DNA of 21,054 bases from a virus: the IMG/VR virus record IMGVR_UViG_3300022198_004361, positions 1 to 21,054 of that record, one strand, 5' to 3'. The position numbers and the translations under genes are program-made. Position 1 is the first letter of the stretch. Each line of letters opens with the position of its first letter. The notes under the pieces were generated by a model. The model worked only from the letters and a program-made list of their open reading frames with translations, was not told the origin of the DNA and did not search any database. This document shows positions 1-17,138 of this stretch, one piece after another.

Positions 1-2130
1 TGCGTTACCTTGAGCATCTATTTCTTTTAATAATTTTTGTTCAGCTAATTTCTGAGACTCTAATTGGAATTGTCTATTTAAAGCATCCTTCTGCATCTCT
101 CTATCTTGCTGATCTTGCTCTCTTTTTTTCCTTCTTATTTTTAGTAATTGAGATGCTAATTTGATATTTTTTATTTCTTCTATATCAATTTTGTCATCTA
201 TGGTAATACCTCCAGATCTTAAAGCTAATTGTATATCCTGTTGAAGTCTTTCATTTTCTTCCTCATCTGGTGATATTTCAACAAAAATCCCAAAGTCATG
301 TAAGTACAAATCTTTTATTTCGTTTAAGATTGTCATGTTACTTCTGCCTATTTGATTAGCAAAAGCTTCAGCAAAATCTGAATATTGTAAGATGTCAGCA
401 ACTCTTATTATAGATGCTTGTGCCATCCTCTTTGTAATCCATAATCCAGATTCTAAGATATGTCTAGTTGCTGTATTAGAGTTTAAAGCAGCCATTTTTT
501 GTATACCCACTAATGCTCTAGAATCTGGCGTAGTGGCATCTCTAGCCTCATTAAGACCCGTTACTTGCCTTATCATACCAAGGTAGTAGTTGTAGTTACC
601 AATCAACATTTGAAGCTTACCAGTAGCGGCAGATTTATTAATCTCCTCAATAGGAACTTTTGCCCTATTCATATCTCCTTCAGTTGTATAACTTCTACCA
701 ATAACACTACCTGTTTGGAAATACATGTTAAGAGCAGCACTAGGATTATAGGAATTACCGTCTCCTAAATCTATGTTTACCAATCCATCAGCATCTAAGT
801 ATACACCATCAGGTACAACTCTAGCTACAACTTGCTGTATTTTATAATGGGTCATTTGTATTTGATTAGCAAAAGGTATCATCCTCTTTACTAATGAATC
901 TAGTTGGCCTTTATACATCCTTGATGCACAAGCTACATATTTAGGTATAGCTCTCTCTAAAGCACTGCTTGGTCGAACCATATTTTTTTCAAGTTCCCAT
1001 TTAACTAGTATATCAGTACCAAGTACTAAAACACCTTCATACCAAACTTCTATATCCTTGTCAACTCTATCAAATCCATGCTCCTCCCAACTATCTGGGC
1101 CTGGATTAAATGACTCTTCTTTCTCTATTAATTTTTCACCGTTTTTAGTTTTCTTCCTCTTATAAACTCTTTTCTGTGTAGTTTTATAAGAAAAATTTAA
1201 GATGTCTACAGTATCCTTATTAAATGGAGATCCATATAATTTATCTAAATTATGAGTTGTATACCACTGCCCACTTAGAGATTGAACTTCTTCAATTGTC
1301 TCATCAGAAATACTTGGATTAATAGCTTTCAAATGAGATACATGAACTGTCTCTACATGTCCAAAATAATAACAGTCCCTAAAGTATCTATCTTCAGTGT
1401 AACTATGGATCCATCTCGCTGGATCAACTCTTGATAAAACTAATCCCTTACCTTTTAAGAAGTCATGCTTACCTACAGATAATCCTAAAATAACTTGATC
1501 CTCATCTATTTCAGATCTAATAGTTTCATAATCATTATCTTCAAAAATTGTAGAAATAGCAGTCTCAGCAGCAATCTCAATTCTAGGTTTATACTTTAGC
1601 TGCATGTGTAGATTCAGTTCTTCATCATCAGCAGGTAAATCGTCAGGATTCATTGCAAACCCATCTACACCAAGCTCTTTTTGGAAATTTTCAATAATAG
1701 GTTTAGCCAACATTTGACCCTCAACCATATCTTGGTATTCCATTCTTTTGGCTTGAGATAATGCATCCTCAGCTTTCACTTTTGGTTTGAATAATCTGTT
1801 ACTCATTCCATTTACAACAATATCAACAAACTTGGGTATAATAGGAACTGGACTCCAATCTATGTTGATGTAAGATAAATCACCATTTATAGCCATTTCT
1901 TTTTTATACTGGGCTATTGGTTGCTCACCTCTTGCGTAAAGTCTTAACTTATTAAAGTCATTCCATCTAGAATAGAACCTAGAATCTGATCCAGTGTTCA
2001 TCCTAAACCATTCACTTTCAATAGCTTTCCCTACTTTTAATCCAAAATCATCACTACCTTTTTCAGTCTCACTTGCAGTTTGAGAAGGAAAGTCTACATA
2101 TGGTATAATTGTTCTTTTACCTTTTTCCAT
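1..2130 (-). CDS. Phage portal protein (3' end cut off by window edge)
   Basis: The frame is open from an ATG at 2128-2130 to base 1, giving 710 residues without a stop, so the C-terminus lies outside the window. Portal proteins form the dodecameric ring at the head vertex through which TerL pumps DNA. Visible marks are an N-terminal stretch with VPIIPKFVDIVVNG (about residues 97-110) and a later TGLNEARD...ALVGIQKMAALNSNTA block, both of which I associate from memory with portals of crAss-like and related Bacteroidota phages. The last ~60 residues are charged and probably coiled coil (KIRRKKREQDQQDREMQKD). The start overlaps the TerL stop by 14 nt, so the two are translationally coupled, and portal after TerL is the usual packaging order. 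The family call is strong; the taxonomic affinity is inference. Confidence 0.88.
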   Translation of the reverse strand, partial: MEKGKRTIIPYVDFPSQTASETEKGSDDFGLKVGKAIESEWFRMNTGSDSRFYSRWNDFNKLRLYARGEQPIAQYKKEMAINGDLSYINIDWSPVPIIPKFVDIVVNGMSNRLFKPKVKAEDALSQAKRMEYQDMVEGQMLAKPIIENFQKELGVDGFAMNPDDLPADDEELNLHMQLKYKPRIEIAAETAISTIFEDNDYETIRSEIDEDQVILGLSVGKHDFLKGKGLVLSRVDPARWIHSYTEDRYFRDCYYFGHVETVHVSHLKAINPSISDETIEEVQSLSGQWYTTHNLDKLYGSPFNKDTVDILNFSYKTTQKRVYKRKKTKNGEKLIEKEESFNPGPDSWEEHGFDRVDKDIEVWYEGVLVLGTDILVKWELEKNMVRPSSALERAIPKYVACASRMYKGQLDSLVKRMIPFANQIQMTHYKIQQVVARVVPDGVYLDADGLVNIDLGDGNSYNPSAALNMYFQTGSVIGRSYTTEGDMNRAKVPIEEINKSAATGKLQMLIGNYNYYLGMIRQVTGLNEARDATTPDSRALVGIQKMAALNSNTATRHILESGLWITKRMAQASIIRVADILQYSDFAEAFANQIGRSNMTILNEIKDLYLHDFGIFVEISPDEEENERLQQDIQLALRSGGITIDDKIDIEEIKNIKLASQLLKIRRKKREQDQQDREMQKDALNRQFQLESQKLAEQKLLKEIDAQGNA

Positions 2131-4390
2131 TATTTATAGAGCTGTGTAATCCATTATTATCGTAAGTTGCAAAGTTAAAACTTATTTTGGACTCTTTGAC
2201 TACTGGATTGTATAAGTGTCTGTTAGCACCTATAATTGCAAATCCAGAACTAACTGTAGGGTCATGAACAGTCCTATTTTTCGGGTTGTATGAAACCCAA
2301 TCAGAAAGAGTTCTATTAAATGGCATAGTGCCCATATCACCTTTGTCTCTATATGAACCAGTATGATCTACGCCTACATGCTTTTGGATGTATGTCTCAA
2401 TAGCTGCTGTATGATCACCAATAACTTGATCAGATGAAGGTATACCCCCTAACTCTCTTTCTGTTGATGTTAGTTTATTTTGGGGTTTATCTGGTCTAGT
2501 TAGTGAGTATTTTCTAAATCCGTTATTTTTTAAAAAGTACAAAAATCTAGGCTTATTATTTTCAGCTAATATAGGCATTCCATAAAATATAATAGCCATC
2601 AATATATCCTCAAAGAATATCTCAGCCATAGGAGGTCTTGCTATATACTCCAAGAAAAACTGATTTGTAGGAGCATCATCCATGTGCGAACCAAGAAATC
2701 CATGAGCAGCACCTTTAGAGCCTCCTCCACCAACAACTCCAGATATATCATATCCATCTAATCCAAAGCATCCTAAATGCTCATTTGCAGGATATTTCAT
2801 ACCGTTTCTCTCGATCCACCTATTTTCCATACCTTTAGGAGGAGTCCATGATACCAAAAACCTACCTCTAACATCTGGGTACCATTCAACATTTCCAAAT
2901 TTAATCCCATCTTTCCATCTAAACCCACCCCTAGTATATAAATGCTGTTCTAAAAATGAGTCATTATAATCTATTTGTTCATATAGATTTGTTAAATTAA
3001 ACAAAGTATTTTTACTATCATCTCTAAATGCATGCCCTTCATTTCTTGGATACTGCCTGTAAAATTCATTTAAAGCGTCAGGATCACCTTTTAAAGACTC
3101 AACCTCACCTTCCCAATAGTCTATAGCTCCTTGGTCTATCATCTCACCATCTATACCAAGTACTGGTTCATCTGGAGTTCTTATTACTGGCATACCATAC
3201 CTGTCTATAAAGCCCTCCATATTCCATTCCATTGGTATGAATAAAGAATATAGTCCAGATTTAGTTTGGCCATTAGCACTTCTTCTAGCAATATCAGAAT
3301 CGTAGTAAATTTCTTTACCCTCTTGACCACCTTCTTTTAATGCATTACAGGTAGACCCCATCATGCATTTTCCAACGATGTTTTTACCAAGACGTAAACA
3401 TGTTTTAGTAACCCTCCAGTTTTTCTTTATATTATTTGGTTTTGTCCATTTGTAAGCCTCATCATGTATTAACATTCTAAGCTTCATACTATCGTATGAG
3501 TTATTGTCAGTATTTCTCCAGCTTATAAATGTATCAAGACCTTTAGCATCATCAGTGCTTTCATCGCCATCCATATTTTTCTTGGTTATCTTTGTAGCTG
3601 GAATTGTATATGATATCTCTGATTTTGGAGTATCCATACCAGCCATAAAAGGCTTAAAGAAAAACGGAAGGCTATTGTTTATAGGAACAACTTTACCTGT
3701 AAACATCTCCTTAGCATCTGCACCAGTCTTTGAAAGTATACCTAAATGGCTTTTTTCTACACGGGTGCCTATATTTATAAGCTCAGAAGAACTCATGAAT
3801 GAAAATCCAGAACGCCTAATTTTTAGATAGTTTAAGCCATAACATCTATGATCAGCAATACATGCCTCCCAAAAAATATAAAGTATTCTATTAGCTTCTC
3901 TAAAGTCAGGATAGCCAATGTCTATATTTGACCATTGAAGATATTGATATTGCGATGGTGGGATCCATACCTTGTTACCATTAGACATAATAAACAGACC
4001 AAAATCTCTTCTTTCAAACTCTTGATCTATATAGCTTATCCATTTAGACTTGAATTCTTTCGGCTTACTTCTCCATTGCTTTAAGGTCTTGATTCTGCTT
4101 AACTCCTCAGGTAAAGGTTGTCTCTCCCAATATTGATGCTCTTTTACATTGCTTCTACTCCATACATTTTTGTAGGCTTTTGGAAGAGCTATTACTAGAT
4201 TTTGTATTTTATAGATGTCCCCAATTTCTCCTGTTTTTGAGACAATAACCATGTCATGCTTTGCATCATAACCATACTTCCAGGACTTTCTTGTATTCCC
4301 TGATTTTATAACAGATTGAGAAACATAATCATCAAGAATCTCATATAAAACTGCACCACTATCCTCTTGTTCTTGTTTCTGCAAAGCCAT
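2117..4390 (-). CDS. terL: Terminase large subunit (ATPase and nuclease)
   Basis: A 757 aa packaging motor protein that translocates and cuts phage DNA at the portal. The ATPase half shows a degenerate Walker A, KIRRSGFS (190-197, the Arg-rich terminase variant), a Walker B MLIHDEAYKW with D310/E311, and a coupling-motif candidate GSTCN (345-349). The conserved-looking SKTGADAKEMF follows Walker A at 220-230. The C-terminal RNase H-like nuclease half has candidate acidic metal ligands at D545 or D548 (FGLDGYDIS), E610 (PILAENN) and D697 (TLSDWV). Length is typical of the large TerLs of Bacteroidota podoviruses. The start ATG lies 32 nt inside the preceding 111 aa gene, and the 3' end overlaps the portal start, all consistent with one packaging operon. 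No intein or frameshift is apparent. Confidence 0.92.
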   Translation of the reverse strand: MALQKQEQEDSGAVLYEILDDYVSQSVIKSGNTRKSWKYGYDAKHDMVIVSKTGEIGDIYKIQNLVIALPKAYKNVWSRSNVKEHQYWERQPLPEELSRIKTLKQWRSKPKEFKSKWISYIDQEFERRDFGLFIMSNGNKVWIPPSQYQYLQWSNIDIGYPDFREANRILYIFWEACIADHRCYGLNYLKIRRSGFSFMSSSELINIGTRVEKSHLGILSKTGADAKEMFTGKVVPINNSLPFFFKPFMAGMDTPKSEISYTIPATKITKKNMDGDESTDDAKGLDTFISWRNTDNNSYDSMKLRMLIHDEAYKWTKPNNIKKNWRVTKTCLRLGKNIVGKCMMGSTCNALKEGGQEGKEIYYDSDIARRSANGQTKSGLYSLFIPMEWNMEGFIDRYGMPVIRTPDEPVLGIDGEMIDQGAIDYWEGEVESLKGDPDALNEFYRQYPRNEGHAFRDDSKNTLFNLTNLYEQIDYNDSFLEQHLYTRGGFRWKDGIKFGNVEWYPDVRGRFLVSWTPPKGMENRWIERNGMKYPANEHLGCFGLDGYDISGVVGGGGSKGAAHGFLGSHMDDAPTNQFFLEYIARPPMAEIFFEDILMAIIFYGMPILAENNKPRFLYFLKNNGFRKYSLTRPDKPQNKLTSTERELGGIPSSDQVIGDHTAAIETYIQKHVGVDHTGSYRDKGDMGTMPFNRTLSDWVSYNPKNRTVHDPTVSSGFAIIGANRHLYNPVVKESKISFNFATYDNNGLHSSINNGKR

Positions 4391-4694
4391 TGTCTCCTAA
4401 ATCTTTACTATCAGCACTAGACTGCGATAATTTTATATCATTCTCTTCCTCCTCAATTCTTTTTAAAATATCAAAAGCATCAGATATGCATAACTTTTTT
4501 GTAGCTGCTGCATTTTTAAGCCTGTCTGCTGATAGGCTTTGCTTTTGAGCTATAGCAACCATCCCCTCGTCATCATACTCAGGTTCTTCACTATCGTCTA
4601 TAATTTCTTCTTCAGCAACTTTTATCAGCTGATTAATAGCTTTATATCCGGCACTTATAATTTTATGTCTTATCTCAACATTCTCCATATCCAA
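4359..4694 (-). CDS. Small acidic protein before TerL; candidate small terminase subunit
   Basis: A 111 aa protein I do not recognise by sequence. It is acidic (EEEIIDDSEEPEYDDEG at about 28-44) and looks largely helical, with a central QKQSLSADRLKNAAATKKLCISDAFDILKR region cut by short loops; the C-terminal 15-20 residues look disordered. Its place directly upstream of TerL, with its 3' end overlapping the TerL start by 32 nt and its 5' end overlapping the 183 aa gene by 20 nt, is where a small terminase subunit is often encoded, and size fits. A DNA-binding helix-turn-helix is not obvious, so the assignment rests on position only. A second Met at residue 3 could be the true start. Confidence 0.6.
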   Translation of the reverse strand: MDMENVEIRHKIISAGYKAINQLIKVAEEEIIDDSEEPEYDDEGMVAIAQKQSLSADRLKNAAATKKLCISDAFDILKRIEEEENDIKLSQSSADSKDLGDNGFAETRTRG

Positions 4695-5950: not shown

Positions 5951-6251
5951 GTTTTTGTAATAATGTTTCTAGTTTATTTATTTGAGAAGTTTTAACACTA
6001 TCTATTTCATGTAAAGCTCCCCTTAAAGCAGTCATTTTACTTTCTGATAAAAGCAGACTATCTTTAAGAGCAACTTGCTCCTTATCTAGAGCAGATAATT
6101 TTTCTTGATAAACAGTTTCTTGTTTATCCCACTGCCCTTGACGCATTTTATAAAAAAAGTATTGAGCTCCTTCTAATATAAAAACAGTTGCAGCAGTTAT
6201 TAAAAGTTTTTTAATAGTGTCTCCTTCAAGGCTTATTGTTGGTATCTCCAT
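5862..6251 (-). CDS. Small membrane-anchored coiled-coil protein, inner-membrane spanin candidate
   Basis: A 129 aa protein with one N-terminal hydrophobic segment (about residues 14-34, KKLLITAATVFILEGAQYFF) followed by a long charged helix (42-105) of coiled-coil character and a polar tail. This N-in, C-out layout is that of Rz-type inner-membrane spanins. The 3' end is embedded out of frame in the 149 aa secreted gene (89-nt overlap), an arrangement typical of spanin pairs. Upstream it overlaps the 122 aa holin-like gene by 26 nt. There is no sequence motif that proves the role; a generic membrane-anchored structural protein remains possible. Confidence 0.55.
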   Translation of the reverse strand: MEIPTISLEGDTIKKLLITAATVFILEGAQYFFYKMRQGQWDKQETVYQEKLSALDKEQVALKDSLLLSESKMTALRGALHEIDSVKTSQINKLETLLQKHEKSITTLSNANSDELGSFFSTYQFNTGN

Positions 6252-6594
6252 CTTCTTGAATCTTTTTTGAGAACTTCTTCATTATGGTATCTGAAAACAT
6301 AGCAGATAATGCAGCCATGGATTCAGAGGTTACTCCTAAAAATCCATCAGCGTGTTTAGCAAGTAAAGCATCTATATCCATAGTATGGAATAAAAAAGCC
6401 GCTACTCCTCCAAAGAAGAAAGAGAAGGCTGTATCATCCCATCTGTCTTTCCACCAGTTACCAATTTGAGAGTCAACACCATTTTTTACTCTATATTTTC
6501 TTTGATTATTTTTTAAATGCCACATTTCTTTAGCCATAGTTCCAAATAGTATAGCTAGAAAGTACCATAATAATATTTCAATAGTTTGTATCAT
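6226..6594 (-). CDS. Holin-like small membrane protein
   Basis: A 122 aa protein with a first hydrophobic helix at about 3-20 (QTIEILLWYFLAILFGTM), a second at 55-72 (TAFSFFFGGVAAFLFHTM) and a weaker amphipathic or membrane stretch at 83-104, ending in a charged tail (KKFSKKIQEDGD). Two or three short helices, small size and a charged C-terminus are holin features; holins make the inner-membrane lesion that times lysis. Its position between the DUF5675 gene and the spanin-like pair supports a lysis role. I do not recognise a named holin family. The start ATG at 6594 follows the DUF5675 stop by 10 nt. Confidence 0.55.
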   Translation of the reverse strand: MIQTIEILLWYFLAILFGTMAKEMWHLKNNQRKYRVKNGVDSQIGNWWKDRWDDTAFSFFFGGVAAFLFHTMDIDALLAKHADGFLGVTSESMAALSAMFSDTIMKKFSKKIQEDGDTNNKP

Positions 6595-8865: not shown

Positions 8866-11800
8866 TTATTCTTTTACAATATTCAACTTATCTATCCCAA
8901 ATTCTTCAAAAGCATCTGGCACAGCACTACTACCAATATATAACTTTTCTATATCAACTGGAGTAGTAAACTCAATAGTAACTTGTTGCCAAATATTAGT
9001 AATAACTATATCTGTTTCTACATTATTAATATACACACTGCTTAAACCAAAATCAGATACTACTTGATTACCACTAATATAGGCTATTCTATTATTAGCT
9101 TCGTCTGTAAGTATATAAGCATGGTTAGTAGAAGTAGGTTTAATAATAAACTGTATTTGCTTAACATCAGTGTAAGGCCCAGCATGACCATCATAATCTA
9201 CATAACCCAAACCTCTAAGAGCAAATGTTTCTTCTTCTCCTACAATGTTTTGAGAGTTACATTCAAATCCAAATACGTCATAAGGTATTCCTGCTATTGT
9301 TTCTTTCTCTGGAAGTATTATTGTTTCCATATCCCCACTAGGAGTTCCATCATTACCATTACCACTTAAATCTTTAAATACTCCGTTTTGATTTATAAAT
9401 CCATCTTTATAATATAACTGTAAATTTTCAGGTGAGTAATCACTAGCTAATGCTCCATTATATATATCTGTTATATCATTTTGGTCAAGTATAGTATCCC
9501 ATACAGCTATATCGTCTGTAATATGCTTACCATAAGTTTCTGTTTGCCATAATCTTCCTAAATTATATACTTGAAATGTATTTGATTCTACAGGTATATT
9601 AAAAGGGTTTTCCTGACAAGCTATTCCATTTACAAAACAATTAGCTGTTGTACTATTAAAAGTAACAGCTACATGATACCAATTTCCTATTGTCATAGGT
9701 AACGGGTCAGTAAAAAATAATTGATTAGCAGCACTATTAATTCTTAATAATATTTTTGAAAAATTTATTTGTGGATTAATATATGAAAAATTAGAAGAAC
9801 CATCAGCTCCTATAACACGGTTATAATTTGATTGTAAAGGCATAAACCAAAATGCTATAGTTCCCTCACTTAAAGTAAATGGTGTGCTTACATTAACTAC
9901 ATCATTAATCCCATCAAAAGGAGAATACCTACTAACATTCTGTAATCCTAATTGTCTAGCTGTACTTAGTCCTGTTTCATAAGCAGGATTAGTCCAAGTG
10001 CCATGATTAGCATTATCTGAATAGTCATAAGCTGTATCTCCACCATTTTCAGTTAGTGGATAAAAGGCTGCTACATTAGACCAAGTAAGTCCTACAGTAT
10101 TTACAAGATAATCTTTAGTAAGTTCAGGTCTAGCGGCCATTTGTTCTACTTGTGTGGCATTGGGCACATCACTACCTATTATAAAATTAGAAACCAATCC
10201 TTTTATTAAATCCGCAGAAGTATTTTCTCCACCTATAAATCTTTGTCCTGAAGTATCAATACTATCAAACCAAACAGTTTTATCTGTACTTATAGTAAAA
10301 GTAAAGTTTGCTTCACTACCATTCAAGTAAACAATAGGTTCAACACCATCTTGAACAATAGTTAATTGAAATATCTCGTCGTAAAGTATGTCTGATATTT
10401 CAATTATCCATTTTTCTGTAGAACCGTCTCTAACATGAATATCAATAGTATCATCATTTCTGTAGATAAGTCTTAAAAAGTCAACAGAACTATTTGATAG
10501 ATTAATTATTTTACTTGCATTAGCTATTGAAGAATCCAAATACAAGCCCATGTGTATAAATCCTGTTGCGAAACTAATATCAGCAGACAAATCACTAGGT
10601 AGTGAAATAACACTTGTCCCATCAAACTTTCCTACAATACCTGTGTATGGAGATAGTTCTTTGTAGTAACCATGTCTTACCCAACAAGTAGCAGTATCAA
10701 AATTGTTTAATGTGCCATTTTGATTTCCCATTGTGTCTATTAATGCAGTTTCACCATCATCTTCATTAAATTGATAATATCTATCAGGGGTAAATAAATT
10801 AGTAGCTAAATAACCATTTCCACTATTATATAAAGTTTGATGATTTGTAAGTGTTAAAGGTGTATCTACAATACTTAATTCATCAGTTCTTCCTTGAAAA
10901 ATAAAATTTAATGATGAACTATTACTCATATCTGCACCTAATCCACTTGCTGTTCTTGCAAGAACTGTACCTGCATTAACCGTTGAACTTGCCTCTTGTA
11001 CTCCGTTTAAAAATAAATAATGTTGGTCGTTTACGCTATCAAAAACAAATGAAACAAATTGCCAACTATTAATTGGTATATCCGAAGTTGATATTAATTG
11101 AACTTCCGTGCCACTATTTCTTGCTCTACATCCTAATTTATTTGATGTGTCAAAATTTACACCAATAGCTACACCGTAATTATTAAAGCTACCATGCCAA
11201 AAAATGTATTGACGTGAAGCACTGGCAGAATTTTCTCGATAAAACCATAAATTAATGGTAAATTGAGATTTTCCTGTTAAATATGTTTCATTAAAATCAA
11301 CATAATCATTAACCCCATCAAATTTTAAAGCGTTGCCGAATGTAAACTCTGGTTTAGTAGGACTAGTATTCTCAATTCTATACTGACCAGGAACAGTAAT
11401 AGTTTCTCTCTTAGTAGCATTACCTACATAACGAGTAAATGTATAACCACTCCAATCATAAGTAGTTCCATTAGCACCATAAATATTTTTGAAGTCTAAT
11501 ATAATATCATCGTTAGAATCTGTAATTTGAAATCTAGAAATATAACCATTTACTTGAAAATCTCTAAAACTACTACTACTAGGTCTTTGCATTATAGAAA
11601 GAACTTGTGCTGTAGTCATAGTGCCTGCACTAGGAGAACCACTATTACGATTTATCATAATTATTGCTGCAGCTCCATCTAAAGAAACAGTCCAAGCACT
11701 TCCGTTATATTCAAATAAAAGAGTATGATTACCAACACTTATAATACCTAAATTAGCACCCCAATTTGTACCTGTTGTAGTTCTAAATCCTACATTATCT

Positions 11801-12192
11801 GGACTATAACTTGCAGTAACTTGTCCTAAAATTATTCTATTATCTGCTGATACTGTTACGGATTCTAAAAAACATGAAGCAGCAGTTGTAGTATCATTAG
11901 AAATAATTTGGGTAGCTAAATAAAACTCAAAATAATAACTTTTTAAAGTATTTGCTCCACTAGTTGATACAAGAGGACTTCTAAAATAATTTAACTGATT
12001 TCCATCAGCAACAAGATAATCATTAATAACAGATTCACCTTCTCCAGCACCTACAAAACTATTAGTATTTTGTTCAGTAAAGTCATAGAAGTGTTCTCCA
12101 ATTATTGCGGATACAGCATCACCAATAGCTCCAATAGCACTTAATACAGAACTTCCAATCCTAGAAAATAAAGATATCTTAAAAGGACTCAT
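8866..12192 (-). CDS. Giant multi-LamG (concanavalin-like) tail fibre / receptor-binding protein
   Basis: The 1108 aa product is built of repeated LamG/concanavalin A-like beta sandwiches, which bind glycans or surface proteins. The clearest unit is 288-455: ALKFDGVNDYVDF at its start, TINLWFYRE, NSWQFVSFVFD, HYLFLNGVQE and RTDELSIVDTPLT. Related units are at about 55-240, 520-665 (GKFDGTSVISL...YLNGSEA) and 745-910 (SPFDGINDVVNV, NWYHVAVTFN, CFVNGIACQ, TDDIAVWDT), with a more divergent C-terminal sandwich at about 960-1108. Spacers share a Y-x-F/Y-x-(N)-E/G...D-x-x-GN-x-NGT motif (471-496 and two later copies). The N-terminal 30 residues are hydrophobic-amphipathic (SSVLSAIGAIGDAVSAIIGE) and may attach to the virion. 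Host recognition is the likely role; enzymatic residues are not visible. Confidence 0.85.
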   Translation of the reverse strand: MSPFKISLFSRIGSSVLSAIGAIGDAVSAIIGEHFYDFTEQNTNSFVGAGEGESVINDYLVADGNQLNYFRSPLVSTSGANTLKSYYFEFYLATQIISNDTTTAASCFLESVTVSADNRIILGQVTASYSPDNVGFRTTTGTNWGANLGIISVGNHTLLFEYNGSAWTVSLDGAAAIIMINRNSGSPSAGTMTTAQVLSIMQRPSSSSFRDFQVNGYISRFQITDSNDDIILDFKNIYGANGTTYDWSGYTFTRYVGNATKRETITVPGQYRIENTSPTKPEFTFGNALKFDGVNDYVDFNETYLTGKSQFTINLWFYRENSASASRQYIFWHGSFNNYGVAIGVNFDTSNKLGCRARNSGTEVQLISTSDIPINSWQFVSFVFDSVNDQHYLFLNGVQEASSTVNAGTVLARTASGLGADMSNSSSLNFIFQGRTDELSIVDTPLTLTNHQTLYNSGNGYLATNLFTPDRYYQFNEDDGETALIDTMGNQNGTLNNFDTATCWVRHGYYKELSPYTGIVGKFDGTSVISLPSDLSADISFATGFIHMGLYLDSSIANASKIINLSNSSVDFLRLIYRNDDTIDIHVRDGSTEKWIIEISDILYDEIFQLTIVQDGVEPIVYLNGSEANFTFTISTDKTVWFDSIDTSGQRFIGGENTSADLIKGLVSNFIIGSDVPNATQVEQMAARPELTKDYLVNTVGLTWSNVAAFYPLTENGGDTAYDYSDNANHGTWTNPAYETGLSTARQLGLQNVSRYSPFDGINDVVNVSTPFTLSEGTIAFWFMPLQSNYNRVIGADGSSNFSYINPQINFSKILLRINSAANQLFFTDPLPMTIGNWYHVAVTFNSTTANCFVNGIACQENPFNIPVESNTFQVYNLGRLWQTETYGKHITDDIAVWDTILDQNDITDIYNGALASDYSPENLQLYYKDGFINQNGVFKDLSGNGNDGTPSGDMETIILPEKETIAGIPYDVFGFECNSQNIVGEEETFALRGLGYVDYDGHAGPYTDVKQIQFIIKPTSTNHAYILTDEANNRIAYISGNQVVSDFGLSSVYINNVETDIVITNIWQQVTIEFTTPVDIEKLYIGSSAVPDAFEEFGIDKLNIVKE

Positions 12193-12648: not shown

Positions 12649-13092
12649 ATGAAATCAGATTATTTAAAATACTATAAGGTAGTTAGAAAATTTATTAAGG
12701 AAAAGCACGGACTTACACAGTCAGATTTAGATACTCTATTCTTCTTAAGATCAGAGGGTTTGTTCACATCAACAAACTTTGATGAGTTTAACAAAATAGT
12801 GTCGTGGGATAGATTAAGGTTAGATAGACTCAGACAAAATGGATGGGTCGAGATCTATAGAGATGCTCCAAAGGATTTAAAGCCTGGAAAAATAGGAGTT
12901 GTATATAGGTTAACCTATAAAGCAAAGCGTGTTATAGATACGATATACGAATACCTAGATGGTAGGTCTCTACCAATGACTCAAACAAGTAACCCGTTAA
13001 TGGCAAAAAATGTACCCTTCTCATCGAAGGTACATAGAAATTTTATAAGAAACTTAAATAAAAAAATTAAGACGGGACAGCACAAACAATAA
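12649..13092 (+). CDS. Winged-helix (MarR-like) DNA-binding protein, only plus-strand gene
   Basis: A 147 aa basic protein. The helices LTQSDLDTLFFLRSEGLF (22-39), TNFDEFNKIVSW (42-53) and DRLRLDRLRQNGWVEIYR (54-71), then a beta wing (GKIGVVYRLTYKAKRVIDTIY), give the order of a MarR-type winged helix: scaffold helix, recognition helix with 'D-x-L-R-Q-N-GWVE', wing, then a C-terminal helix. The C-terminal part (TSNPLMAKN...) resembles, from memory, small proteins common in marine Bacteroidota phages. It is divergent from the structural operon and shares a 31-nt promoter region with it, so it may regulate that operon or itself. Its 3' end overlaps the convergent groES by 26 nt. DNA binding is inferred from pattern only. 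Confidence 0.75.
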   Translation: MKSDYLKYYKVVRKFIKEKHGLTQSDLDTLFFLRSEGLFTSTNFDEFNKIVSWDRLRLDRLRQNGWVEIYRDAPKDLKPGKIGVVYRLTYKAKRVIDTIYEYLDGRSLPMTQTSNPLMAKNVPFSSKVHRNFIRNLNKKIKTGQHKQ

Positions 13093-13330
13093 ATGGATAC
13101 TTAATAGCCATCACATTTTCTCCTTCTATATGCAAAGAAAATGTTCTTGATTTATCGTAATATATAACATCATTCACCTTTAGTTTTCCACAACTCTCGC
13201 CAACAGATACAATCTTACCTTTAGAGTATCTGAAGTCTGATTTGTCTGTAATTATCATTCCATTTTTATCCTTTAGCTCTTCGTTAACAGGTTTAAATAA
13301 AACGTAATCAGCTATTGTTACTATATTCAT
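13067..13330 (-). CDS. groES: Co-chaperonin GroES
   Basis: An 87 aa GroES. It begins IADYVLFKP (6-14), then has a mobile-loop region NEELKDKNGMIITDK (16-30) with the GMII tripeptide in place of the E. coli GIVL contact, then the barrel signatures YSKGKIVSVGE (35-45), KVNDVIYYDK (51-60), IEGENVMAIKYPFIVC (68-83). Length is slightly below the 95-100 usual; the roof hairpin seems shortened. It caps GroEL and provides a folding chamber. The gene ends a three-gene chaperonin operon, its start overlapping the 122 aa gene by 23 nt. The 3' end lies antisense to the end of the winged-helix gene. A phage T4 gp31-like role, adapting chaperonin to a phage capsid protein, is plausible but here a phage GroEL is present too. 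Confidence 0.9.
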   Translation of the reverse strand: MNIVTIADYVLFKPVNEELKDKNGMIITDKSDFRYSKGKIVSVGESCGKLKVNDVIYYDKSRTFSLHIEGENVMAIKYPFIVCAVPS

Positions 13331-13676
13331 TTTTATATTTTTTTTGAAATTCGTAAATAAATTTTATTGGCGAGTGGTCTAAAAAGTCATTTTCATTTAC
13401 AATTTCTCTAACTACCCATCCTGCACTTTTTCTGATTATACCCTTTTTTAGGTCTTTACCCCATCTAAACCAACCTGTTCTTTGGTCGTAATTTAATCCT
13501 AGACTAATAAGCATATTACCTGTAATATCTACGGGTAGTAAGAATTTTATGTATTCAGATATTCCATTATGAGAAAAAACCTTGTTGTTTTCACCAAACT
13601 TTTCTATAGAAAAAACCTTACCATTCCTATCAGAAACAATGGATCCAATTTCTAAATCAGTTCGATTCATAAACAA
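13308..13676 (-). CDS. Hypothetical protein between groEL and groES
   Basis: A 122 aa protein of no assigned function. The N-terminal part (IGSIVSDRNGKVFSIEKFGE, 11-30) reads as a small beta unit, followed by ISEYIKFLLPVDITGNMLISLGLNYD (39-64), WFRWGKD (71-77) and a C-terminal SPIKFIYEFQKKYKN (102-116). This layout recalls a small family frequent in Bacteroidota phages and prophages, with L-L-K-x-GF in the middle and an 'H/Y-x-LQ-x-LYxxLTG' helix at the end; the match is weak and from memory. The 67 aa product at 18438-18641 (ending LNNLVKTLTGESIY) looks like a distant member. It overlaps groEL by 20 nt and groES by 23 nt. The start may be Met3 at 13670. Confidence 0.75.
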   Translation of the reverse strand: MFMNRTDLEIGSIVSDRNGKVFSIEKFGENNKVFSHNGISEYIKFLLPVDITGNMLISLGLNYDQRTGWFRWGKDLKKGIIRKSAGWVVREIVNENDFLDHSPIKFIYEFQKKYKNEYSNNS

Positions 13677-15231
13677 CAGTATCAGTCCCTAGTACAGTAG
13701 TTGCAACAGAAACAGCATTCTCTAATGCCGACTTTGTAACTTTTGAAGGATCAACAACGCCCATATCAATAAGATTGCCATATTTACCAGATTTTAAATT
13801 ATAACCAAATCCAATTTCATTTTTATACGGATAAACATCTTCTTTATTTAAATCAGCATTTTCCAGTATCTTTAATAAAGGTTGCTTTAATGCATATTTC
13901 ATTATTTCATGAGCAACAATTTCTTCTTGAGTCAAATCTTCTACAGTAAAGTCTAAATGGGTTTGAGCATCATATAGAGCTTTCCCTGCCCCAGACACTA
14001 CCCCATCTTCTATAGATGACCTTACAGCACAAACAGCATCCTCTATTCTATCATAAAGTTCTTTCTGCTCTATGTCGCTATTACCGCCTGCGTATATAAC
14101 ACCTATACCCCCATCTAAAGTGGCAATTCTTTTTCTTATGAACTCTCTCTCAGATTCGGTAGAAGCTTCGTTAATGGCCTCTTTCAATTCCTCTACCCTT
14201 TGACTTATAGCTTCATCGCTTGAATTAACCCTAACCATTACTGTAGACTCCTGATCAGAAACAACTCTAGATACTAACCCAAGATCTTCATATGATATTA
14301 AACTTAAATCATCCCCTGTTGATTCGCTAAAGTATGTAGCACCAGTTGCTAAAGCAATATCCTTCATTAACTCATCTTGCTTCCATCCGAAATTTGGCGG
14401 TTCAACAGCCAACATCTTTAATCCTAACTTCACAGTATTTGCAGCTAAAGTAACATTGAAGTTAACTGAGCATGGAGCTATTATAATTAATGGCTTTCTT
14501 TCTTGTATAACCTTTGATAAGGCCCCTTCTATTTGAGATAAATTACTTATCTCTTGGGTAGACACCAAAACATGAACATCACCCTCAAGGATACACTGAT
14601 CACCCTTCATGTTATTGATAAAAGCCCTATTAGACATACCCCTATCAATCTTAATCCCGTTTGCACCTTCAAAATATGTCTCCTCTGTCTTTGAATTATC
14701 AACAGTAACATGTCCGTTTTTACCAACACTTGTGTATGCCTTATGAACTAAATCTCCGAGCCATGGTGTGTTATTAGTTGATATGGTTGCAATTTCTTTC
14801 ATTAACTTCTCATCTAAGTTTATCTTAGATTTATTAATAATATCGATGCATGAATTTTTTAAATCTACTATTTTAGACATTATATCAGATCTGCTTAAAG
14901 AAGAGTTACCATTAATAAGCTCTAAACCTTTTTCAATTATAGCGTAAGCTAAAACTATCGATGTTGTTGTCCCATCACCAGCTTTTGTTGCTGTGTTTAA
15001 TGATGCTTGTCTTACCATAGTGGCACCAAGACTTTCTACCTTATCATCTAAGTTTACAGCTCTAGCTACAGTAACACCATCCTTTGTCACTGTCATCCCA
15101 CCAATATGTCTGTTTGATTCTAAAACTACGGTTTTACCGTTAGGTCCTAATGTGCTTGATACAGCCTTGTAAATTTTAGTAATGCCTGAGAATAGTTTTT
15201 CTCTAGCTTCTTCAGAAAATAATAGTTTCAT
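13657..15231 (-). CDS. groEL: Chaperonin GroEL (phage-encoded)
   Basis: A full-length-like 524 aa Hsp60. ATP-site residues are kept: LGPNGKTVVL (28-37), TKDGVTVAR with D51 (49-57), AGDGTTT (84-90), the catalytic D398 in RIEDAVCAVR, GAGKAL (415-419 region, GGG changed to GAG) and VVDP with D494. The apical substrate-binding part (about 190-370) aligns by pattern (RGMSNRAFINN, EVP-type positions, KAPNFG-like EPPNFGWKQDELMKDIA). The flexible GGM-rich C-terminal tail of bacterial GroEL is absent; the chain ends GTDTVVYESN. Folding of phage proteins, perhaps capsid or fibre chains, is the likely use. It is first in the operon with a 122 aa gene and groES, and has its own promoter-like element at 15249-15256. 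Confidence 0.95.
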   Translation of the reverse strand: MKLLFSEEAREKLFSGITKIYKAVSSTLGPNGKTVVLESNRHIGGMTVTKDGVTVARAVNLDDKVESLGATMVRQASLNTATKAGDGTTTSIVLAYAIIEKGLELINGNSSLSRSDIMSKIVDLKNSCIDIINKSKINLDEKLMKEIATISTNNTPWLGDLVHKAYTSVGKNGHVTVDNSKTEETYFEGANGIKIDRGMSNRAFINNMKGDQCILEGDVHVLVSTQEISNLSQIEGALSKVIQERKPLIIIAPCSVNFNVTLAANTVKLGLKMLAVEPPNFGWKQDELMKDIALATGATYFSESTGDDLSLISYEDLGLVSRVVSDQESTVMVRVNSSDEAISQRVEELKEAINEASTESEREFIRKRIATLDGGIGVIYAGGNSDIEQKELYDRIEDAVCAVRSSIEDGVVSGAGKALYDAQTHLDFTVEDLTQEEIVAHEIMKYALKQPLLKILENADLNKEDVYPYKNEIGFGYNLKSGKYGNLIDMGVVDPSKVTKSALENAVSVATTVLGTDTVVYESN

Positions 15232-16176: not shown

Positions 16177-16211
16177 CAAAAAATAAACCACGATAGGAGT
16201 CTAACTCTATC
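16177..16211 (-). terminator. Terminator-like hairpin at the end of the dNMP kinase gene
   Basis: On the minus strand GATAGAGT (16204-16211), loop TAG, and ACTCCTATC (16192-16200) form an 8-bp stem with one bulged base that covers the kinase stop codon. A U-rich run TTTATTTTTTG follows at 16177-16188. The stem-to-U-tract distance of 4 nt is a little long, so strength is uncertain. Confidence 0.45.
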
Positions 16212-16866
16212 TCCTTTTGAAGTAATATGACCATAAGTTATATAACTTCTCAAGTGATCCGCTGTTTGTTAATACATCGTCAAAGTGCTTGTACCCATCC
16301 AAAGAAGTCTCGCTTGTATGATTGTATTTATGTATATCCTCAACCGTTCCATTAACCAATAGGTCATCTTCACTACGATAGTGAGATCTTAATGCTATAC
16401 TCCTTTCTATTCGGAATACTTTTCCACCTCTGTTCTTGATCCCTTCCACCTCATTTGGAAATCTCACATCTGTAATAATCCAATTCGAATTCTCCTTATA
16501 ATCTGAAAATAACGAGTTTACCCAAATGTTTGGATGGATGATCTTACGACCACATTCAGTCCCTAAAAGTTGTAATATCTTTCTCGGTGTTAAATCATCC
16601 CATTCAGGACCCAATGAAGCCTCTTTATACTTCCTATTTTCAAGCTGCTCCCTAGTACAACCTAACCATAAGCACAACGTGTCCTTGATTTTGTCCGCAA
16701 ACTTTTTATACTCGTACTTGGGGTTACCCAACAACTGGCTTGAATAAACATGCCTAGCTCTAAACTCAATAAAACTAGGATGGTCAACAGTAGATAAATA
16801 ATTAATTATCTGCCCTGATAAATCTTTGCCGGAGCCAATCTTGCCTGATATACCAATGATGCTCAT
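16207..16866 (-). CDS. Deoxynucleoside monophosphate kinase
   Basis: A 219 aa P-loop kinase, which phosphorylates dNMPs to dNDPs for phage DNA synthesis. It shows GKIGSGKD (8-15), the TPRKILQLLGTECGR (93-107) and NIWV (113-116) motifs, TDVRFPNE (132-139) in the lid/substrate region and HTSE (183-186), as in T4 gp1-type enzymes. The longer open frame to 16983 gives 39 extra residues that are out of keeping with the family and run antisense-free over the end of the membrane gene, so I chose the ATG at 16864-16866, which overlaps the membrane gene's stop (ATGA). It ends at the hairpin 16192-16211. Length suits the phage family. Confidence 0.87.
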   Translation of the reverse strand: MSIIGISGKIGSGKDLSGQIINYLSTVDHPSFIEFRARHVYSSQLLGNPKYEYKKFADKIKDTLCLWLGCTREQLENRKYKEASLGPEWDDLTPRKILQLLGTECGRKIIHPNIWVNSLFSDYKENSNWIITDVRFPNEVEGIKNRGGKVFRIERSIALRSHYRSEDDLLVNGTVEDIHKYNHTSETSLDGYKHFDDVLTNSGSLEKLYNLWSYYFKRR

Positions 16867-17138
16867 TTCTTTAAAATAAATCCTACAAATGTTCCAATAG
16901 TACCGCCAATTAAATATGCTAAAATTGGTTGCCAAGTCATGCTCATAACAGCATCCGCTCCAATAGCGATTGATAACAGCCACAATATACCAATTGCATT
17001 TCCTGTTATAACTGCTTTTAAGATATTACGTTCTGAGGTGTGTATCACATTCAAGGTCCTGAACATGACGAATAAAAATTGTGTGACTAACACAATAAAC
17101 CCACTTATCCATGGGTCCGTTAAAATTGATTTTAGCAT
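16863..17138 (-). CDS. 91 aa membrane protein with three helices
   Basis: The product has three hydrophobic segments: ISGFIVLVTQFLFVMFRTL (11-29), AVITGNAIGILWLLSIAIG (42-60) and PILAYLIGGTIGTFVGFIL (71-89). The layout, with short loops and a Lys-Lys end, recalls small membrane proteins seen in Bacteroidota phages that carry F-x-x-RTLNV-I-x-T-x-E in the first loop; function is unknown and holin is one option. It is followed directly by the dNMP kinase with ATGA overlap, and preceded by the repeat-borne promoter element TAAATTTG 19 nt upstream of its ATG. A membrane role is certain from hydropathy; the rest is inference. Confidence 0.8.
   Translation of the reverse strand: MLKSILTDPWISGFIVLVTQFLFVMFRTLNVIHTSERNILKAVITGNAIGILWLLSIAIGADAVMSMTWQPILAYLIGGTIGTFVGFILKK

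Follow-up and report, generated by a model that had tools for sequence, protein, structure and literature searches.

Does a phage that carries groEL and groES possess a chaperonin system of its own, which genes make up that system, and does the small gene lying between the two take part in it? These questions are raised by the window, by which we mean the whole 21,054-base IMG/VR virus record analysed here, and the record was confirmed to be viral.

Gene layout of the window

An earlier note had described GroEL, a 122-aa gene and GroES as one overlapping minus-strand operon, and open reading frames were found exactly where it had placed them (Table 1). The frames of GroEL and the 122-aa gene overlap by 20 nt, and those of the 122-aa gene and GroES by 23 nt. 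A further co-chaperonin gene, overlooked in that note, was identified directly upstream of the terminase gene and 8 kb from GroEL, and minus-strand genes of tail and lysis type lie between the two GroES-type genes. The 111-aa ORF occupies the position usual for a small terminase subunit. No Rfam match, tRNA or tmRNA was found in the window.

Table 1. Principal features of the window, with the basis for each assignment
Feature	Coordinates	Strand	Basis or remark
Portal	1-2130 (cut)	-	Position and gene order in relatives
Large terminase subunit	2117-4390	-	phrog_6681, 2.6e-160; conserved neighbour of tandem GroES
111-aa ORF	4359-4694	-	Between tandem GroES and terminase; homologue in 80/80 tandem loci
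Tandem two-domain GroES-like co-chaperonin, 183 aa	4675-5226	-	phrog_13932 and predicted fold
147-aa convergent gene	12649-13092	+	Sequence resembles winged-helix regulators; conserved directly past GroES
Single-domain GroES (Cpn10), 87 aa	13067-13330	-	Pfam Cpn10
122-aa insert ORF	13308-13676	-	Remote phrog_10066 member
GroEL (Cpn60), 524 aa	13657-15231	-	Pfam, PHROGs, NCBIfam

Three other genes deserve mention. The convergent gene was present in 76 of 80 GroEL loci; 75 of these 76 copies lie antisense to GroEL, and of the 59 whose distance to GroES could be measured, 48 are no more than 200 nt away. Its homologue in the podovirus genome MW202828 is annotated 'repressor protein', and this winged-helix-like gene may serve in control or insulation of the chaperonin operon. 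Upstream of the operon lies a deoxynucleoside monophosphate kinase gene (16207-16983, minus strand; phrog_139, 5e-41), which was not found in the loci of GroEL relatives. A minus-strand gene at 8866-12192 encodes an 1108-aa protein in which repeated concanavalin/LamG-like sequence was recognised by eye; this protein, which has hardly any counterpart outside the window's phage, is probably a tail or receptor-binding protein.

Identity and origin of the phage GroEL

The GroEL protein matched Pfam Cpn60_TCP1 over its full length (2.3e-49; 168.8 bits against a cut-off of 34.3) and phrog_5725 groEL at 7e-119, and scored above the cut-off of the NCBIfam GroEL subfamily. The ATP-site residues listed in the earlier note (D51, D86-GTTT-90, D398 and D494) are indeed present and correspond to E. 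coli D52, D87-T91, D398 and D495; they were observed to be invariant in 77 phage proteins and, apart from one T91A, in 80 cellular ones. The GGM tail is absent, as had been noted: the window protein ends in VVYESN, and no GGM was seen in any viral relative examined.

Phage-type flanking genes (portal, terminase, tail-type genes) surround the operon in this viral record, and in a maximum-likelihood tree the window GroEL falls within an all-viral clade of 36 sequences (SH-aLRT 100), which includes the complete podovirus genome MW202828. It neither lies within a host genus nor has bacterial genes beside it, and the phage-specific chaperonin proposed in the earlier note, for which a phylogeny had been suggested as a check, is thereby upheld. 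The long-branch GroELs of Elemovirus, Panino and Calle lie outside this clade, and the deep placement of these, and of the crAss-like and HHBS47_1 GroELs, is unsure. It might still be argued that the operon is a recently captured host GroEL operon, and so an ordinary auxiliary gene, as the top PDB match of GroEL is an ancestral Bacteroidetes-group GroEL. We consider this extremely improbable and rejected it on identity and tree: the best cellular GroELs, drawn from several phyla, reach just 37% identity, whereas viral relatives reach 41-50%, the viral clade has a support of 100, and at 53 positions that hardly vary among cellular GroELs, fewer than 10% of the phage proteins retain the residue.

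The earlier description of phage GroELs as rare could not be maintained. One IMG/VR scan returned 125 relatives, 278 phage records match, and the genes were already published in 2017, when 36 environmental Flavobacteriaceae phage genomes with GroEL were reported (PMC5332604); GroEL together with GroES was described in phage Panino in 2024 (PMC11590407). The pair is common in phages of this lineage and already known. Two Salmonella records of about 501 kb in the phage collection (AFYI01000007.1 and AGRM01000005.1) contain chromosome-like GroEL matches and could give rise to false phage GroELs.

Contact residues of GroEL

Using E. coli GroEL numbering, we compared the 77 phage with the 80 cellular GroELs, and the 53 changed positions noted above were found among 185 that are conserved in cells. 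At the inter-ring sites R452/E461/S463/V464 the window protein has L453, N462, E464 and D465. R452 is present in 80/80 cellular GroELs and in fewer than 10% of phage GroELs, which have E, K, I, M or L instead, and the V464 position is mostly charged (E, K or D) in phages. These inter-ring positions are among those changed in SR1, the classical single-ring form of GroEL. The position of L234 is E in 69 of the 77 phage GroELs, and V263 and V264 are mostly replaced by A; these residues line the site at which GroEL binds substrate and GroES. The altered contact sites are no more than suggestive of a single or loosely paired ring, because so many other GroEL positions have changed as well.

The gene between GroES and GroEL

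If translation begins with the TTG at 13676, the protein has 122 aa; beginning instead with the ATG that lies two codons on (13670), overlaps the GroEL stop and is equally likely to be the true start, it would have 120 aa. The earlier note had proposed this gene as a partner or client factor of the chaperonin, and frames that overlap both GroEL and GroES do suggest co-translation. Against a dedicated partner stands the distribution of the gene. No relatives were detected by tblastn in 80 GroEL loci, and none were found in phage records or IMG/VR. Among 79 relatives, GroEL and GroES directly abut in 50, are separated by an inserted ORF in 20 and by a gap without an ORF in 8, and the inserts fall into 13 families unrelated to each other and to the 122-aa protein.

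A remote kinship was found with phrog_10066 (PHROGs; E 2.6e-4 over residues 3-114). Against our own profile of this family (13 members) the 122-aa protein scored 18.2 bits, whereas the highest of 10,000 shuffles reached 12.8, and in a background of 5,566 ORFs it came directly behind the single true member; one family member (L165) reads ELRIGNYV..PIPLTEEWLLKFGF..KYVHEIQNLYFALTGEEL. Relatives of phrog_10066 occur in 35 phage records, all of them from flavobacterial phages, in non-chaperonin contexts among small unannotated genes, and a member turned up in only one of the 30 GroEL-type phage records tested, outside the GroEL-GroES slot. Since the family is rare in GroEL-type phages and the slot turns over, the 122-aa gene is most likely cargo unrelated to the chaperonin; a role as partner appears very unlikely to us and was ruled out on this distribution. 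Callevirus (Calle_3, L255 1925-4048) also has a gene between its chaperonin genes, the order being Cpn10, a 90-aa unknown gene and GroEL, opposite to that of the window.

The single-domain GroES

The 87-aa protein matched Pfam Cpn10 at 8.6e-10 (39.0 bits against a cut-off of 21.1). Neither this protein nor its aligned relatives contain the roof segment of E. coli GroES (around NGRILENGEVKPLD), in agreement with the shortened roof described earlier, and 42 of about 60 distinct sequences are 85 aa long. Such a roofless GroES would form a more open dome, similar to that of gp31. Its mobile-loop motif reads GMIIT at the position of E. coli GIVLT, and among single GroES proteins the G is found in 60/60, followed by L/I, L/I/F and L.

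A tandem GroES-like protein beside the terminase

The 183-aa protein matched phrog_13932 'co-chaperonin GroES' at 2e-22, and 415 relatives were recovered in one IMG/VR scan. Its AlphaFold2 model (pLDDT 84) divides into domain 1 (about residues 1-106) and domain 2 (about 107-183). The top Foldseek match of the whole model was 7ekq_R (E 3e-5; Z 10.2 over 156 aa, covering both domains), a chain whose molecule name identifies it as Cpn20 in the Chlamydomonas ClpP complex. When domain 1 was modelled alone, its 18 best Foldseek matches were all of GroES/Cpn10 type, with Z 7.3 over 82 aa against GroES, 6.2 against T4 gp31 and 5.0 for the best non-GroES structure; domain 2 (107-183) matched single GroES with Z of about 8. 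Domain 2 also exceeded the Pfam Cpn10 cut-off in relatives (phi18:3, 2.1e-8; Calle_1, 1.4e-5), and its profile matched single phage GroES at E 5.8e-7. Searches with the window sequence itself gave no significant Pfam, NCBIfam or PDB profile match, domain 1 had no significant sequence match to Cpn10, and a profile comparison between the two domains gave no signal. The tandem assignment is for this reason based on predicted structure and on relatives: by predicted fold the protein is a tandem GroES, domain 1 through structure alone and domain 2 also through the sequences of relatives.

The loop of domain 1 is non-canonical, reading GGLDLI in the window, of the pattern GG[IL]D[FL], and the loop of domain 2 is shortened in the window. 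In phi18:3 both loops look loop-like: that of domain 1 (KTESGLELH) appears canonical, and the Cpn10 match of domain 2 is full and includes the loop region. The tandem protein further carries an invariant HHN segment that was not seen in aligned GroES sequences. Wherever the neighbourhood could be checked (76 of 76 loci), the tandem gene was followed by the terminase. In one record (L055 39847-40397; G061) the tandem frame is broken by several stops, which reflects either a pseudogene or an assembly error.

The tandem lid was found in 0/397 bacterial genomes from the family of one Flavobacterium and in 0/395 from its phylum, a null that shows little given that no positive-control genome was included, while the same model did find phage records. 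In databases the long GroES of phages is annotated 'GroES', 'Cpn10' or 'hypothetical'. We found no published description of its two-domain nature, and the literature on Cellulophaga and virioplankton phages might contain one.

Co-occurrence of the putative lids and GroEL

The tandem lid was present in 25 of the 29 GroEL-bearing IMG/VR records of at least 43 kb and in 0/7 GroEL phages of other lineages. Conversely, 13 of 16 tandem-bearing records of at least 46 kb contained GroEL and three did not; both genes occur together in MW202828, Panino, Elemovirus and Calle_1. No GroEL was found in the complete Cellulophaga phage phi18:3 (L263), which encodes a single GroES (gp080) and a tandem GroES (gp096), the two genes lying at 6109-6363 and 16459-17061. 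Because phi18:3 keeps both lids without GroEL, the lid pair looks from gene content to be a more stable unit of the lineage than GroEL, and it may exist with host GroEL alone. The histories of GroEL and the tandem lid need not be shared, since the clade of the window does not include the GroELs of Elemovirus, Panino and Calle.

A proposed chaperonin system and its alternatives

We favour, as the probable explanation, that this marine-type phage encodes a group I chaperonin system of Bacteroidetes podovirus type, comprising a private GroEL and two lid genes, with the 122-aa gene as unrelated cargo. The phage GroEL would bind and hydrolyse ATP as bacterial GroEL does, and its rewritten inter-ring and apical surfaces would make it a ring that is single or only loosely paired, served by private lids and acting on substrates of its own. 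One lid would be the roofless single-domain GroES beside GroEL, the other the Cpn20-like tandem GroES beside the terminase. Because both carry mobile-loop-like motifs, it is plausible that both cap the chaperonin ring, alone or mixed. The chaperonin would serve the folding of phage proteins, probably late virion ones. By analogy, the ring might even carry a mixed seven-domain lid (e.g. 3 x 2 + 1), evolved independently of chloroplasts on a single-ring phage GroEL. We advance this as a tentative idea that is more doubtful than not; if it is true, the built-in asymmetry of such a lid could suit large virion proteins.

The place of the tandem gene counts against a co-chaperonin: it lies among the packaging genes, at a distance of 8 kb from GroEL, and a structural or packaging role would suit this as well. 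A GroES fold could have been taken over for packaging, head assembly or scaffolding, leaving only the single GroES to serve the phage GroEL; the fixed place of the tandem gene beside the terminase (76/76), the HHN segment, the non-canonical loop of domain 1 and the persistence of the family without GroEL in phi18:3 would all fit. However, about a dozen genes of the phi18:3 record are flagged by virion MS/MS, the portal included, and the tandem gene is not among them, its annotation coming from similarity alone; the canonical-looking domain 1 loop and full domain 2 Cpn10 match of phi18:3, together with the co-occurrence of the tandem protein and single GroES, also speak for a lid, and we regard the structural role as rather unlikely, while taking it seriously. 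It is also conceivable, and in our judgement unlikely, that both lids act mainly on host GroEL in the manner of T4 gp31, with the phage GroEL an optional extra. The gene content of phi18:3 and the apparently greater stability of lids and terminase in the lineage agree with this, but GroEL directly abuts single GroES in 50 of 79 relatives of the window's group, and the clade-wide change of the apical contacts of phage GroEL suggests co-adapted lids.

The operon as first read is also corrected by our preferred explanation, the third chaperonin gene lying beside the terminase and not between groEL and groES. A review terms the tandem GroES (Cpn20) chloroplast-specific (PMC5780408). What appears to be new, going by the predicted fold, is the two-domain nature of a phage GroES encoded beside a single GroES, GroEL with GroES in a phage being already known. 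Hundreds of viral contigs contain this combination, as do cultured phages of Cellulophaga, Flavobacterium and Maribacter. A phage tandem lid would offer an independent test case for why lid subunits are unequal and how an even number of domains fits a sevenfold ring. The question is directly testable in cultured phages with their own GroEL (Calle_1, phi38:1) and without it, phi18:3 being a natural test case with both lids, no GroEL and virion MS/MS data.

Comparison with known systems

Virioplankton chaperonins were reportedly described by Marine et al. in 2017. Phages of Flavobacteriaceae (Cellulophaga phi38:1/Calle, Elemovirus, Maribacter phage Panino) likewise have a phage-type GroEL with an adjacent small GroES, and such phages, including the 'group 2' environmental viral genomes (PMC5332604), share the terminase-adjacent long GroES, annotated as co-chaperonin GroES, Cpn10 or hypothetical. 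The GroELs of Elemovirus and Panino are, however, just 30-33% identical to that of the window.

In chloroplasts Cpn20 occurs with Cpn10/Cpn11, and the Chlamydomonas co-chaperonins Cpn11, Cpn20 and Cpn23 include tandem and single forms that assemble jointly into rings containing seven GroES domains (PMC5780408). The likeness to Cpn20 consists in two GroES domains arranged head to tail and encoded alongside a single-domain GroES. The window protein differs in being a phage gene product with 15-16% identity to Cpn20, in having no roof, and in an extra domain 1 segment after the HHN strand and a reduced domain 2 loop. By analogy, mixed lids of the Chlamydomonas type are possible with the phage gene set.

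T4 gp31 is a single-domain protein that replaces host GroES on host GroEL, and T4 is not known to encode a GroEL. It is a phage co-chaperonin without roof loops (PMC6318259); both domains of the tandem protein match it in structure, and the single GroES is likewise roofless.

Pseudomonas phages EL and OBP encode GroELs that adopt single-ring states and have lost bacterial-type features (PMC7185714, PMC5934643). The window GroEL resembles them in being phage-encoded and without some bacterial-type features, its own ring state being suggested here by sequence. GroELs of this kind are far more divergent, that of Pseudomonas phage HHBS47_1 being 23% identical to the window protein, and whereas no GroES is known for EL, the window system encodes two.
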